A DNA stretch of 49,453 nt from assembly GCA_902596515.1 (NCBI GenBank), contig CACJUF010000008.1, positions 1 to 49,453 on the forward strand, written 5' to 3'. Both the position numbers and the translations under genes were made by a program. Source of the stretch: an uncultured Pelagibacteraceae bacterium. Its GTDB lineage: Bacteria; Pseudomonadota; Alphaproteobacteria; Pelagibacterales; Pelagibacteraceae. Positions 6,179 through 40,033 of this stretch are shown piece by piece. The first letter of the stretch is position 1; each line of letters begins with the position of its first letter. A model generated the notes under the pieces. The model saw only the letters and a program-made list of their open reading frames with translations. It did not search any database and was not told the DNA's origin.

Positions 6179-7795
6179 ATGAGCCATTACGAAACTAATC
6201 TTAATAAAAATGATGCAAATTATGTTCCATTAACACCTTTGACTTTTTTAAAAAGAGCTTATGAAATTTATCCCAATTATGAAGCAGTTATTTATGAAGA
6301 TAGGAAATATACTTGGAGTCAAGTATATAAACGAACTGTAAAATTTGCTAGCGCGCTTAATAAAATTGGAGTCAGCAAGGGTGATACTGTCTCGTTTTTA
6401 GCTTTTAATACCCCTGAAATTTTTGAAGGACATTATTCAGTTCCAATGACAGGTGCAGTTCTTAATACTATTAATATTAGATTAGATGCTAAGACAATTG
6501 CGTATATTTTAGAACATAGTGAGGCAAAAGTTTTAGTTGTTGATAGGCAACTTCATATTGAGGTTAAAAAGGCCTTAAATACTTTAAAAAGAAAAATCAT
6601 AATAATCGATATCAATGATAAATTTGCAGACCAATCTAAGTGTGAGCAAATTGGAGAATTAGAATATGAGAGTTTTTTAAATACTGGTGATGAAAATTAT
6701 GATTGGAAAATGCCAGAAGATGAATGGCAAGCATTATCACTTAGTTATACTTCAGGAACAACTGGAAACCCTAAAGGTGTAGTTTATCATCATAGAGGAT
6801 CATATTTAATGTCAACTGGAAGTGCAGTTGCATGGAATATGCCAAACAGGTTAAATTTTTTAACAATTGTACCTATGTTTCATTGTAATGGTTGGGGTTA
6901 TCCATGGACTGTCCCTATGTTAAATGGAAGAACTATTTGTTTAAGAAATATTGATATAAAAAAAATATTTGAATTAATTGATAAATATGATGTTACCCAT
7001 TTTGGTGGAGCACCGATTGTATTGAATATGATCACCGGAGCTCCTGCGTCCGACAGAAAAAAGCTAAAACAAAAAGTTTATGTGTTAACTGCTGGTGCGC
7101 CACCACCAAGTATTATATTTAAAAAAATGAAAGAGCTTGGATTTGAGGTAATGCATGTCTATGGATTAACAGAAACCTATGGTCATGTTACTCAATGTGC
7201 TTGGAACGAATCTTGGAATGAATTTGATGAAGAAAAGCAGAATGAGATAAAGGCAAGGCAAGGAGTAAGATACCCTAATACAGAGGGAATTACAGTTATG
7301 GACCCTGAGTCAATGAAAGAAGTACCAAAAGACGGAAAAACGATTGGTGAAATTATGATTAAAGGAAATGTCGTTATGAAGGGCTATTTCAAAGATAAAG
7401 ATGCTACAGATAAAGCTATGGGTGGTGGATGGTTTCATTCTGGAGATTTGGCGGTCATGCATCCAGATGGATATGTTAAAATTCAAGACAGATCCAAAGA
7501 TATCATTATTTCTGGAGGTGAAAATATTTCTTCAATCGAAATAGAAAACACTTTAGCAAAGCATCCATCAGTTTCTATTGCAGCAGTAGTAGCAAAACCA
7601 GATGAAAAATGGGGCGAAGTTCCATGTGCATTTATTGAGATGGTCCAAGATAAACCGGTTACAGAAAAAGAATTAATAAGTTTTTGTAAAGAAACCCTTG
7701 CTGGTTTTAAAGTGCCGAAACAAGTTGTTTTTTGTGAATTACCAAAGACTTCAACAGGTAAAATTCAAAAATTTGAATTAAGAAAAAAATTTTAG
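6179..7795 (+). CDS. dmdB: 3-(methylthio)propionate--CoA ligase DmdB
   Basis: DmdB is an AMP-forming acyl-CoA ligase that activates methylmercaptopropionate made by DmdA. The P-loop SYTSGTTGNPKG (residues 189-200), the hinge and nucleotide residues around Asp423 (FHSGDLAVMHPDGYVKIQDRSKD), GGENISSIEIE and the C-terminal catalytic Lys528 in STGKIQKFELRKKF are complete. MYGLTETYG-type residues are seen as VYGLTETYGHV. Length 538 aa is typical. The ATG directly abuts the dmdC stop, and the hydrolase start follows 8 nt after its own stop. Medium-chain fatty acyl ligases look alike; the operon makes DmdB by far the best reading. Confidence 0.92.
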   Translation: MSHYETNLNKNDANYVPLTPLTFLKRAYEIYPNYEAVIYEDRKYTWSQVYKRTVKFASALNKIGVSKGDTVSFLAFNTPEIFEGHYSVPMTGAVLNTINIRLDAKTIAYILEHSEAKVLVVDRQLHIEVKKALNTLKRKIIIIDINDKFADQSKCEQIGELEYESFLNTGDENYDWKMPEDEWQALSLSYTSGTTGNPKGVVYHHRGSYLMSTGSAVAWNMPNRLNFLTIVPMFHCNGWGYPWTVPMLNGRTICLRNIDIKKIFELIDKYDVTHFGGAPIVLNMITGAPASDRKKLKQKVYVLTAGAPPPSIIFKKMKELGFEVMHVYGLTETYGHVTQCAWNESWNEFDEEKQNEIKARQGVRYPNTEGITVMDPESMKEVPKDGKTIGEIMIKGNVVMKGYFKDKDATDKAMGGGWFHSGDLAVMHPDGYVKIQDRSKDIIISGGENISSIEIENTLAKHPSVSIAAVVAKPDEKWGEVPCAFIEMVQDKPVTEKELISFCKETLAGFKVPKQVVFCELPKTSTGKIQKFELRKKF

Positions 7796-7803: not shown

Positions 7804-8580
7804 TTGATATTCCAACTAGAAAACAAAAACATTCATGTATCCGACTCTGGTCAGGGTATAGATATGAATAAAGATACGATAGTATTTTTACATGGAAGTG
7901 GTCTCTCACACATTGTTTGGTCGCTAGCTGAACAATTTTTTTCATCAAAAAATTATAATGTATTATCTATAGATTTACCTGGACATGGAAATTCAGATGG
8001 TCCTTGTTTAGATAGTATTGAAAAAATTGCTGATTGGATGGAAAAAGTATTTGATAAATTAAAATTAAAAAACTTAATTTTAGTTGGTCATTCTCAAGGA
8101 TGTTTAGAAATACTCGAATATTCTTCAAGATATAAAGAGAGACTCAAAAAATTAGTTTTTGTTGGAGGTTCAAATAAAATGCCGGTACATCCGGATCTAA
8201 TTGAATTAGCTCAAAGCGGACACTCAGACGCTGTAAAATTAATGATGAAATGGGGATATGAGGGTTCAAAAAAGTTTATTGGTGGTAACCCAGTAGAAAA
8301 AATCATTCAATCGCCTAGAGATATAAGTGAAATTTTGGCTGTTGATTTAAATGCATGTAACAATTATTCAAATGGCTCTGAAGCTGCAAAAGTAATTGAT
8401 CTACCATCGATGCTTATATTTGGAGAATTAGATAAAATGGTTAATTTAGAAGCAGGAAAAAAATTCTCTAATTTGATTAAAAATTCAACTACTCACGTGA
8501 TCAAAGGATGTGGCCATATGATAATGATTGAAAAAGCATTCGAAATGAGAGAAAAGATTTTAGAATTCTTAAATAAATGA
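7804..8580 (+). CDS. alpha/beta hydrolase of unknown substrate inside the DMSP operon
   Basis: A 258-aa single-domain alpha/beta hydrolase with an intact triad: oxyanion-hole segment [12 protein letters not shown], nucleophile Ser97 in GHSQG, an acid in the GELDKMVN loop, and His238 in GCGHMIM. There is no signal peptide or membrane helix, so it is cytoplasmic. It resembles the small-molecule hydrolases of the MenH, lactonase and haloperoxidase-like group. It is placed between dmdB (8 nt) and dmdA (4-nt ATGA overlap), so it is co-translated with the demethylase. No dmdD-type crotonase is in the window. A role as a thioesterase or in handling methylthio-acyl-CoA is inference only; family similarity does not give the substrate. 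The start is TTG with an AGGA site. Confidence 0.9.
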
Positions 8581-38914: not shown

Positions 38915-40033
38915 TTATCTCTCTGAATAAGATTTATCTAAAAAATTTTTAAGGGTTTTCAAAAAGTCTGGAACATCTAATAAAAAAGAGTCATGACCTT
39001 TGTCAGATTTTATTTCAACAAATCCAACATCAGCACCAATTGCATTAAGAGCGATAACTATATCTTTATTTTCTTGGGTCGGATAAAGCCAGTCTGAGGT
39101 AAAAGATATTATAAAAAACTTAGCCTTAGTTTTTTTAAATGCATTAGATAAATTACCATCAAATTGTTTAACTAAATCAAAATAATCCATTGCTCTTGTG
39201 ATATAAAGGTAACTATTAGCATCAAATCGATCTACAAAAACCGATCCTTGATATCTTAGATAACTCTCTATTTGAAAATCTGCATCAAACCCAAATTTAA
39301 GAGCATCTCTTTCTTGAAGTTTTCTTCCGAATTTTTCTTGTAAACCTTTTTTAGACAAATAGGTTATATGAGCAGCCATTCTCGCTACTGATAACCCTTT
39401 ATCAGGAAGAGTATTATTATATAAATATTTTCCGTCTGACCAGTTATGATCTGATGCTATCGCTTGTCTACCCAATTCATTAAAAGCAATATTTTGAGCA
39501 GAATGATTAGAGGTACACGCGATTGGTACTACTGTATTAGCTTTATCTGGATAATTACTAATAAATTGCAAAACTTGCATTCCCCCCATCGATCCACCAA
39601 CAACTGAAAAAAGTTTTTTTATCTCAAAATGATCTAATAAATTTACTTGTGCGTTGACCATGTCATTAATAGTAATTACGGGAAAATCGGTTCCGTAAAT
39701 TTTATTTGTATCAGGATTTTTGTGGCTTGGACCAAATGAGCCCATACAACCACCTATTACATTTGCACAAATAACAAAATATTTATTAGTATCTATTGAT
39801 TTGTTAGGACCCACTGCATAAGACCACCAACCATCTTTTTTTGTAACGGGATTAATACCTGTAACAAATTGATCACCAGTAAGTGCATGAAAAACAAGGA
39901 TTGCATTATCTTTGTTTTTATTAAGCGAACCATAAGTTTCATACGCGAGTGGAAAATTATTAATAGTTTTACCACAGTCAAGTTTCAATGGTTTCTTAAT
40001 AACAAGCGTTTTTATATTCTCTTTAATATTCAT
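38915..40033 (-). CDS. metX: homoserine O-acyltransferase MetX
   Basis: MetX acylates homoserine (acetyl or, in some lines, succinyl), opening methionine synthesis. The alpha/beta-hydrolase fold has nucleophile Ser148 in GGSMGGMQVLQF and a C-terminal His in DKGHDSFLLD. PLAYETYGSLNK, FHALTGDQFV, GGCMGSFGP are typical family motifs. At 372 aa it is full length. Specificity for acetyl-CoA over succinyl-CoA cannot be decided safely from the sequence. It is preceded by a promoter and a SAM-II riboswitch, so SAM is expected to repress metX-metW-gloB. In a DMSP user, acylhomoserine could accept methanethiol or sulfide. Confidence 0.96.
   Translation of the reverse strand: MNIKENIKTLVIKKPLKLDCGKTINNFPLAYETYGSLNKNKDNAILVFHALTGDQFVTGINPVTKKDGWWSYAVGPNKSIDTNKYFVICANVIGGCMGSFGPSHKNPDTNKIYGTDFPVITINDMVNAQVNLLDHFEIKKLFSVVGGSMGGMQVLQFISNYPDKANTVVPIACTSNHSAQNIAFNELGRQAIASDHNWSDGKYLYNNTLPDKGLSVARMAAHITYLSKKGLQEKFGRKLQERDALKFGFDADFQIESYLRYQGSVFVDRFDANSYLYITRAMDYFDLVKQFDGNLSNAFKKTKAKFFIISFTSDWLYPTQENKDIVIALNAIGADVGFVEIKSDKGHDSFLLDVPDFLKTLKNFLDKSYSER

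Follow-up and report, generated by a model that had tools for sequence, protein, structure and literature searches.

The gene that stands between dmdB and dmdA in this DNA of an uncultured member of the Pelagibacteraceae encodes a serine alpha/beta-hydrolase (ABH), and it is well supported that this protein belongs to type A, a SAR11 branch of a hydrolase family whose usual partner is an O-acetylhomoserine sulfhydrylase. The reading that we prefer, at a rough probability of 0.38, is a tentative one: ABH may supply the (thio)ester cleavage in a replacement for DmdD that is split over two proteins, acting at the step at which methylthioacryloyl-CoA (MTA-CoA) is resolved and methanethiol is released, and may have been recruited to its operon from a module that carries methanethiol to methionine.

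The window, by which we mean the whole 49,453-nucleotide stretch that was analysed, holds the gene order dmdC-dmdB-ABH-dmdA (Table 1). The dmdB gene begins on the first base past the dmdC stop, dmdB ends at 7795, 8 nt before the start of ABH, and the TGA stop of ABH (8578-8580) overlaps the ATG of dmdA at 8577 in the tetranucleotide ATGA; the earlier note had described the gene order, the 8-nt gap, the overlap and an intact hydrolase with Ser97 and His238, and all of these were confirmed. The 4-nt overlap with dmdA recurs in 45 of the 65 type A loci for which both gene ends were found, and the TTG start occupies the window-equivalent position in 52/67 type A loci (a count in which some genomes appear twice); this shared TTG start may keep translation of the type A hydrolase low. 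Comparison with other type A loci by the NG86 method gave dN/dS values of 0 to 0.20 against the window's gene, or about 0.05-0.10 for pairs with dS above 0.5, and ABH is under purifying selection. Judged from its sequence, the identity of dmdA can be regarded as secure. The names dmdB and dmdC are based on position and on the listing of DmdB and DmdC for P. ubique in an excerpt of PMC5069961: the former gene passes general acyl-CoA synthetase models (PRK08162 at 852.5 against a cut-off of 677, PRK06187 barely at 479.2 against 476) and lies far under the MMPA-CoA ligase equivalog of NCBIfam (348 against 822), and the latter is over the cut-off of no NCBIfam model. A scan of the whole window with Rfam at gathering thresholds gave no match.

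Table 1. Coordinates of the genes and codons discussed, numbered from the first letter of the window
Feature	Position	Strand	Basis
dmdC-type acyl-CoA dehydrogenase, 587 aa	4415..6178	+	PF00441, PF12806
dmdB-type acyl-CoA synthetase, 538 aa	6179..7795	+	PRK08162 over cut-off
ABH type A, serine alpha/beta-hydrolase, 258 aa	7804..8580	+	TTG start; PF00561; genus search
Gln44 codon, type A signature (Arg in MetY2-partnered homologues)	7933..7935	+	alignment
Catalytic Ser97 codon (GHSQG)	8092..8094	+	invariant in 98 aligned rows
Cys185 codon, aligned with AF-Est2 Cys172 beside the CoA thiol	8356..8358	+	alignment; excerpt of PMC4861933
Asp210 codon (DKM), third triad member	8431..8433	+	invariant in 98 rows
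Catalytic His238 codon (CGHM)	8515..8517	+	invariant in 98 rows
dmdA, DMSP demethylase, 369 aa	8577..9686	+	NF009133, 578 bits, cut-off 410
metX-type homoserine O-acetyltransferase	38939..39997	-	TIGR01392, 456.9 bits, E 1.3e-137, under 500-bit cut-off; outside operon

ABH is a member of the alpha/beta-hydrolase superfamily by its PF00561 score (97.3 bits against a Pfam cut-off of 25.8), its G-x-S-x-G elbow, its triad and its fold, and among the NCBIfam models shown none came near its own cut-off. The AlphaFold model (pLDDT 90.2, pTM 0.90) has an ordinary fold, with uncertainty confined to the cap loop around residues 150-170; in fold searches with this model general esterases and lactonases fell within about 1.4 Z of AF-Est2, and no one substrate class stood out. 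By sequence the closest solved relative is this same AF-Est2, a carboxylesterase of Archaeoglobus fulgidus (5FRD; 3.5e-19 in a single-sequence search, 8.5e-34 with a profile), which has the same triad and for which we know of no link to DMSP or to MetY. According to passages of PMC4861933, AF-Est2 is an esterase on pNP esters, and the purified protein carried CoA in a groove that runs to the active site, with the thiol near Cys172, the residue that aligns with Cys185 of ABH. The same passages report no thioesterase activity of AF-Est2 on acetyl- or succinyl-CoA, which, in a relative about 26% identical to ABH, counts against a role of ABH as half of a split DmdD.

Kinship of another kind raises the question of C-C bond cleavage, in which ABH would act in the manner of MhpC and, once methanethiol has departed, convert 3-oxopropionyl-CoA to formate and acetyl-CoA, unlike DmdD with its products acetaldehyde and CO2. 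ABH shares a superfamily and a similar fold with MhpC, HsaD, BphD and PcaD, its sequence is akin to those of meta-cleavage product hydrolases and enol-lactonases, and SAR11 oxidises C1 units (PMC3160333, in part). The HsaD, BphD and PcaD models are nevertheless missed by large margins (the NCBIfam equivalogs for HsaD and BphD at 62.1 of 400 and 55.4 of 462 bits), the authors of the AF-Est2 study expected no C-C activity in their protein (PMC4861933, in excerpt), and we regard such a reaction as very improbable.

The wider family is defined by its neighbour. A search with a profile built from types A and B reached 78 of 289 genomes of the class, each with a single strong homologue, and two of the 78 are type A SAR11 genomes; of the 76 non-SAR11 genomes with a match, the neighbourhood was viewed in 64 (the other 12 being left out), and in 63 of these 64 an O-acetylhomoserine sulfhydrylase gene lies upstream on the same strand, the remaining one being cut by a contig end. 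We call this partner MetY2; it is about 444 aa long and scores 664 bits against NF006004 (cut-off 636). MetY2 stands upstream in 60/60 of the class loci that were fetched (56 within 60 nt), in 3/4 further loci, and in 80/80 loci of a scan of named genomes limited to the best 80 of 479 relatives, 77 of them within 60 nt and one at about 750 nt. The titles among these best 80 of 479 include Pelagibacteraceae, SAR116, Rhodobacteraceae, Planktomarina, Rhodopseudomonas, Azospirillum and Bradyrhizobium, as well as Rhodocyclales, Burkholderiales, Gammaproteobacteria, SAR324 and others. The sole branch without MetY2 among the loci examined is type A, which in other SAR11 genera, too, is found flanked by dmdB and dmdA.

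A quick tree of 98 rows (made without L214 and L196, the frames of which ran far upstream, and with a few over-long rows cut to their last 270-275 residues) joins 20 type A, 20 type B and six marine-type class sequences in one clade with support 99, the type A stem being long at 0.91 changes per site. By the placement in this tree the window's ABH is a member of the MetY2-partnered family, although it departs from the traits of that family in following dmdB rather than MetY2, in having Gln44 and in lacking the Pro-Gly cap motif. Within SAR11 the MetY2-partnered proteins share with type A the triad and about 40% identity, but are encoded with MetY2 and retain two features missing from type A, namely Arg44 and the Pro-Gly cap loop. 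Residue 44 is Gln in 20/20 type A sequences and Arg in 20/20 of type B and in 57 of the 58 others from the class (the 58th has a gap), and in type A the Pro-Gly motif is replaced, with a deletion of about seven residues, the triad being kept. With both features gone from type A, the two types may differ in substrate. The Cys185 position is Cys in 20/20 type A, 20/20 type B and 50/58 other sequences. At the position aligned with Arg117 of AF-Est2, which binds the CoA diphosphate, Lys or Arg is found in 19/20 type A sequences and Ala in 20/20 of type B, a difference that is suggestive only.

Enzymes of the O-acetylhomoserine sulfhydrylase class can add methanethiol or sulfide to O-acetylhomoserine, and since MetY2-ABH occurs in many genomes for which no dmdA is known, the original role of the pair need not involve DMSP or CoA. 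ABH could accordingly belong to the homoserine side of the partnership, hydrolysing an ester or thioester connected with the sulfhydrylase (an O-acylhomoserine, an S-acyl-homocysteine or homocysteine thiolactone), and type A would then have come into the dmd operon as that operon feeds methionine synthesis. The constancy of the MetY2 pairing in the 63 of 64 class genomes and in all of the best 80 of 479 relatives speaks for this, as do a gene that by eye we take for a homocysteine methyltransferase, upstream of the pair in L183 and matched at 31% in L222, and the lactonases among the fold matches. We still hold it to be unlikely, since type A genomes without MetY2 keep ABH in an acyl-CoA operon, the recurrent extra neighbours in marine relatives are genes for acyl-CoA ligase, dehydrogenase and hydratase, and with a MetX-type gene present ABH is not needed as a homoserine acetyltransferase. 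The idea that ABH substitutes for homoserine O-acetyltransferase was itself rejected: a metX-type match was found in 9/9 SAR11-family genomes tested, that of the window included, at E of about 1e-133 or better and under the 500-bit cut-off (the best TIGR01392 matches of all 20 genomes searched lie under it), and MetA in 0/9 of the SAR11-family genomes tested. The metX-type gene of the window is the likely source of O-acetylhomoserine. Passages of PMC4958253 describe O-acetylhomoserine sulfhydrylases of R. rubrum that are raised on methylthioadenosine.

The acyl-CoA neighbours are recurrent. Among the best 80 of 479 relatives the order FadB-dmdB-MetY2-ABH was seen in six named loci, in addition to L181, and MetY2-ABH-FadB in nine (SAR116, Rhodobacteraceae and others), three of which have a dmdC-like gene upstream (L253-L255), FadB being named from an NCBIfam match below cut-off. 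A dmdB-like gene of more than 50% identity lies within 8 kb in 9/60 class regions. In L194 a true dmdA (480.7 bits, cut-off 410) is divergent from MetY2-ABH-FadB, and L426, of the same genus, is alike. Of 27 loci from other families with dmdA or a dmdA-like gene (L410-L436), none had ABH or a crotonase of the type described below within its 1.5-kb flanks; MetY2 is next door only in L422 and L426, both of one genus, and L436 has a MetY-like gene of 49%. That dmdA is seldom beside the ABH module outside SAR11 counts against the split-DmdD reading.

Within the window's genus 151 genomes were sorted by the identity of their homologue to the window's ABH, at least 55% defining type A and about 39-43% type B; 72 carry type A, 44 type B and none both, 12 of the 151 being without a match and 23 having weak matches only. 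The 20 type A loci that were mapped run leuC-leuD-leuB-dmdC-dmdB-ABH-dmdA-asd-sdh as far as their contigs extend (leuC, like the OsmC, Gfo/Idh and homocysteine-methyltransferase types named elsewhere, is our own assignment by eye and from recall), and dmd loci from 20 genomes without type A have the order unchanged but ABH absent (20/20). The earlier note had taken a frequent lack of the gene from the dmd operons of close relatives as grounds for giving up its reading; the lack is there in all 20 of these loci, yet 17 of the 20 genomes hold a MetY2-linked homologue elsewhere (G127, G056 and G027 are without a type B match), so that this yardstick would have misled. Type B lies away from dmd and overlaps the end of MetY2 by 4 nt in 20/20 loci, beside genes that we take to be rplM, rpsI and argC. 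MetY2 at 90% identity or more was found in 45/151 genomes, namely all 44 of type B and G146 (a partial match), and in 0/72 of type A; the genus and named Pelagibacteraceae records share 92-93% identity in MetY2. The window's genome has no MetY2 match of at least 90% and shows MetY1 only, at 42%. In the five type A genomes for which the places of both rplM and MetY1 were given (G000, G012, G046, G082 and G107), rplM lies about 0.2 kb from MetY1 in every case and no MetY2-ABH stands between them.

With a true dmdA defined by about 58% identity or more, and 65% or more within the genus, 118 of the genus genomes have dmdA: 71 of them with type A, 39 with type B and 8 without either. The survey of co-occurrence proposed in the earlier note thus finds the hydrolase, as type A or B, in 110/118 dmdA-positive genomes, the location in the dmd operon being confined to type A. 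The rplM gene is essential, and because it, the neighbour of MetY2, is missing as well from seven of the eight genomes that have dmdA and no ABH, their gaps are most likely gaps of assembly (rplM is present in 9/9 other genomes tested); a real loss of ABH is unlikely for these seven, and the eighth is G146 with its partial MetY2 match. Conversely, no true dmdA match was found in one type A genome (G022, at a contig end) and in 5/44 type B genomes (G010, G063, G067, G083 and G085), G063 being 91% complete. Genomes of this genus that demethylate DMSP appear to need the hydrolase, and ABH of type A in the dmd operon and MetY2-ABH of type B away from dmd look like mutual substitutes.

These figures bear on the view that ABH works off the main path, removing by-products such as S-methyl thioesters or stray methylthio-acyl-CoA and in this way protecting CoA or clearing a toxic ester. 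Such a clean-up would account for both the MetY2 and the dmd settings and for a generic esterase fold, it matches the release valve for trapped CoA suggested in the earlier note, and the relative AF-Est2 binds CoA. An optional valve would however not be expected in as many as 110/118 dmdA-positive genomes of a genus that is streamlined, distributed in an either/or pattern with gaps due mostly to assembly, and we consider the clean-up role improbable.

The history of the two arrangements was followed on a quick tree of LeuB, LeuD and SdhA, which are encoded on the flanks of dmd (39 rows, 36 of them scored, the three rows without a detected ABH being left unscored and one locus dropped for missing data). 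The A/B state needs six changes on this tree, at least five of them on starred branches; the tree was built from genes by the dmd locus and may mirror local recombination. Either the A and B arrangements would therefore have replaced each other repeatedly, or the dmd locus would have recombined often.

What ABH might do in the dmd operon is best considered against DmdD. In R. pomeroyi this enzyme hydrates MTA-CoA with Glu121 and Glu141, methanethiol leaving spontaneously, and Glu141 is needed for hydrolysis of the CoA ester, which the E141A variant loses (PMC3660561, in excerpt). AcuH is an alternative to DmdD (PMC5395565, in part), and in SAR116 DmdD or AcuH has been assigned (passages of PMC12262181). 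The absence of a DmdD orthologue from SAR11, stated in the earlier note, agrees with its reported absence from P. ubique, and alternate enzymes have been hypothesised for the formation of methanethiol from MTA-CoA in SAR11 (both in the available part of PMC5069961). ABH is no DmdD by descent: DmdD, which hydrates and hydrolyses in one protein, has a crotonase fold, an unrelated mechanism and no homology to the alpha/beta-hydrolase, and what the two would share is the proposed pathway step, including hydrolysis of the CoA thioester.

A crotonase is nevertheless encoded in SAR11, and in some genomes next to ABH. The order dmdB-OsmC-crotonase-ABH-dmdA was found in four genomes of two related SAR11 genera (L405-L408), that is, in 3/7 genomes of g224 and the one dmdA-positive genome of g226, a 4-nt overlap joining crotonase to ABH in three of them and about 18 nt separating the two genes in the fourth; in the other g224 genomes (4/7) and in the window's genus the crotonase does not adjoin ABH. 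With the crotonase of the window's genome the operon crotonase shares 48-53% identity and the Gln/Gly type: Gln and Gly stand at the positions of DmdD Glu121 and Glu141 in all 38 distinct SAR11-type crotonase genes (40 rows). Two distant crotonases read alongside differ, with Glu/Glu in L409 and Glu/Ile in G248, which belongs to another genus, is without dmdA and has this as its only crotonase. The SAR11 protein thus matches the crotonase family and lacks the two Glu residues of DmdD; it should not hydrolyse a thioester by the DmdD route, and a hydratase role is uncertain too. A normal enoyl-CoA hydratase, in the presence of which ABH would be superfluous, was considered and set aside for the window's genome, which shows one crotonase, with neither Glu. 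A second, distant crotonase is present in 5/13 genomes of the genus (G357, G086, G453, G471 and G479) and in the g224 operon genomes, where it is possible that it serves as a canonical hydratase.

Across 60 SAR11-family genomes ABH and dmdA occur together in 23, ABH alone in 3, dmdA alone in 2 and neither in 32 (Fisher test 2.8e-11, phylogeny being ignored); for the crotonase type the corresponding figures are 23/6/2/29 (both, crotonase only, dmdA only, neither). Five genera without dmdA (23 genomes) have the crotonase type in none, and in g226 the one dmdA-positive genome of seven is alone in having ABH, crotonase and dmdA together. Among the exceptions, the contig of G461 ends just upstream of dmdA, dmdA of G446 is cut by a contig end, and G490, of a SAR11 genus without dmdA, has a more distant match. 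Two further genomes deserve mention in their own right. In G482 (L343, 66% complete) dmdB-ABH is followed by asd, dmdA being gone, which amounts to a natural deletion of dmdA that retains the hydrolase; in G439 (L367, 95% complete) dmdA lies at another locus, beside genes that resemble holB and tmk, and a search for ABH gave nothing.

In the split-DmdD reading, DmdA, DmdB and DmdC would convert DMSP to MTA-CoA, and the ECHDC3-type crotonase, in place of DmdD, would set up the release of methanethiol. ABH would then hydrolyse the remaining CoA thioester through an acyl-enzyme formed with its Ser-Asp-His triad, the substrate being either MTA-CoA or the 3-oxopropionyl-CoA left once methanethiol departs; CoA would be freed in this step, methanethiol would pass to methionine through MetY, and the two jobs of DmdD would be divided over crotonase and hydrolase. 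The gene, its triad, its coupling in the operon, the switch of partner and the co-occurrence with dmdA are observed; the substrate and reaction of ABH, and the action of the crotonase on MTA-CoA, are what we infer here. Given a crotonase without the Glu pair, and the loss of CoA-ester hydrolysis in the E141A variant of DmdD, a separate hydrolase would be needed, and a Ser-Asp-His hydrolase encoded beside the crotonase in some genomes is a natural candidate for the cleavage of the thioester. The proposal of the earlier note that the hydrolase acts on a methylthio-acyl-CoA thioester and marks a variant end of the pathway fits the coupling to a crotonase in the dmd operon of four genomes, and fits less well a family that is not DMSP-specific and is usually partnered by an O-acetylhomoserine sulfhydrylase. 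Also to be set against the split-DmdD reading are the lack of both catalytic Glu residues, which makes the crotonase's own role doubtful, the position of the crotonase apart from ABH in most of g224 and in the window's genus, and the exceptions represented by the 5/44 type B genomes without dmdA and by G482 and G439.

Several neighbouring genes were noted in passing. A protein that looks like OsmC accompanies the crotonase and dmd-type genes (L350:3081-3530, L405-L408, L241, L242 and L244); in the family f141 (G311) a 48% DmdA-like gene precedes OsmC-crotonase, a 66% copy lying elsewhere, and in f31 the order is OsmC-crotonase-dmdB-like. One SAR11 genome, of g224, has a presumed Gfo/Idh oxidoreductase, so named by eye, between ABH and dmdA (L349:2270-3196). 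Some SAR11 genomes have, downstream of their type B ABH, a gene for a protein of about 370 aa that matches no Pfam or NCBIfam model and appears methyltransferase-like by eye (L063:7857-8978, L340:362-1471 and L278); in L340 it stands between ABH and MetY1. DmdA-like paralogues of about 50% identity (frames of 383-418 aa) are found in many genomes, for example at G077:C6:12528-13646. OsmC is among the sulphur-responsive proteins of P. ubique described in passages of PMC5069961.

The hydrolase beside SAR11 dmdA is itself already in print: an mhpC hydrolase is listed with SAR11 dmdA, fadD and mmgC in a figure legend of 2011 (PMC3160333, in part). Table 2 of PMC5069961 contains a hydrolase, SAR11_0173. 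No description of the MetY2-hydrolase pair, the A/B switch or the SAR11 crotonase-hydrolase pair was found in the open-licence literature. In its broadest form the argument would be that SAR11 ends DMSP demethylation with a Glu-less ECHDC3-type crotonase and a serine hydrolase drawn from a general MetY2-ABH module, that this module and the operon version have displaced one another several times in the evolution of SAR11, and that MetY2-ABH is an undescribed and widespread device that ties the release of methanethiol to its capture; taken as a whole this is rather doubtful. The comparison points in any case to a conserved pair of O-acetylhomoserine sulfhydrylase and serine hydrolase, and for the missing step in the use of DMSP it names two concrete proteins, the crotonase and ABH, together with a split-enzyme hypothesis that can be tested. 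SAR11 is without assimilatory sulphate reduction and depends on reduced organic sulphur (PMC5069961, in excerpt), and through this reliance the step at which methanethiol is released bears on the sulphur cycle of the ocean.
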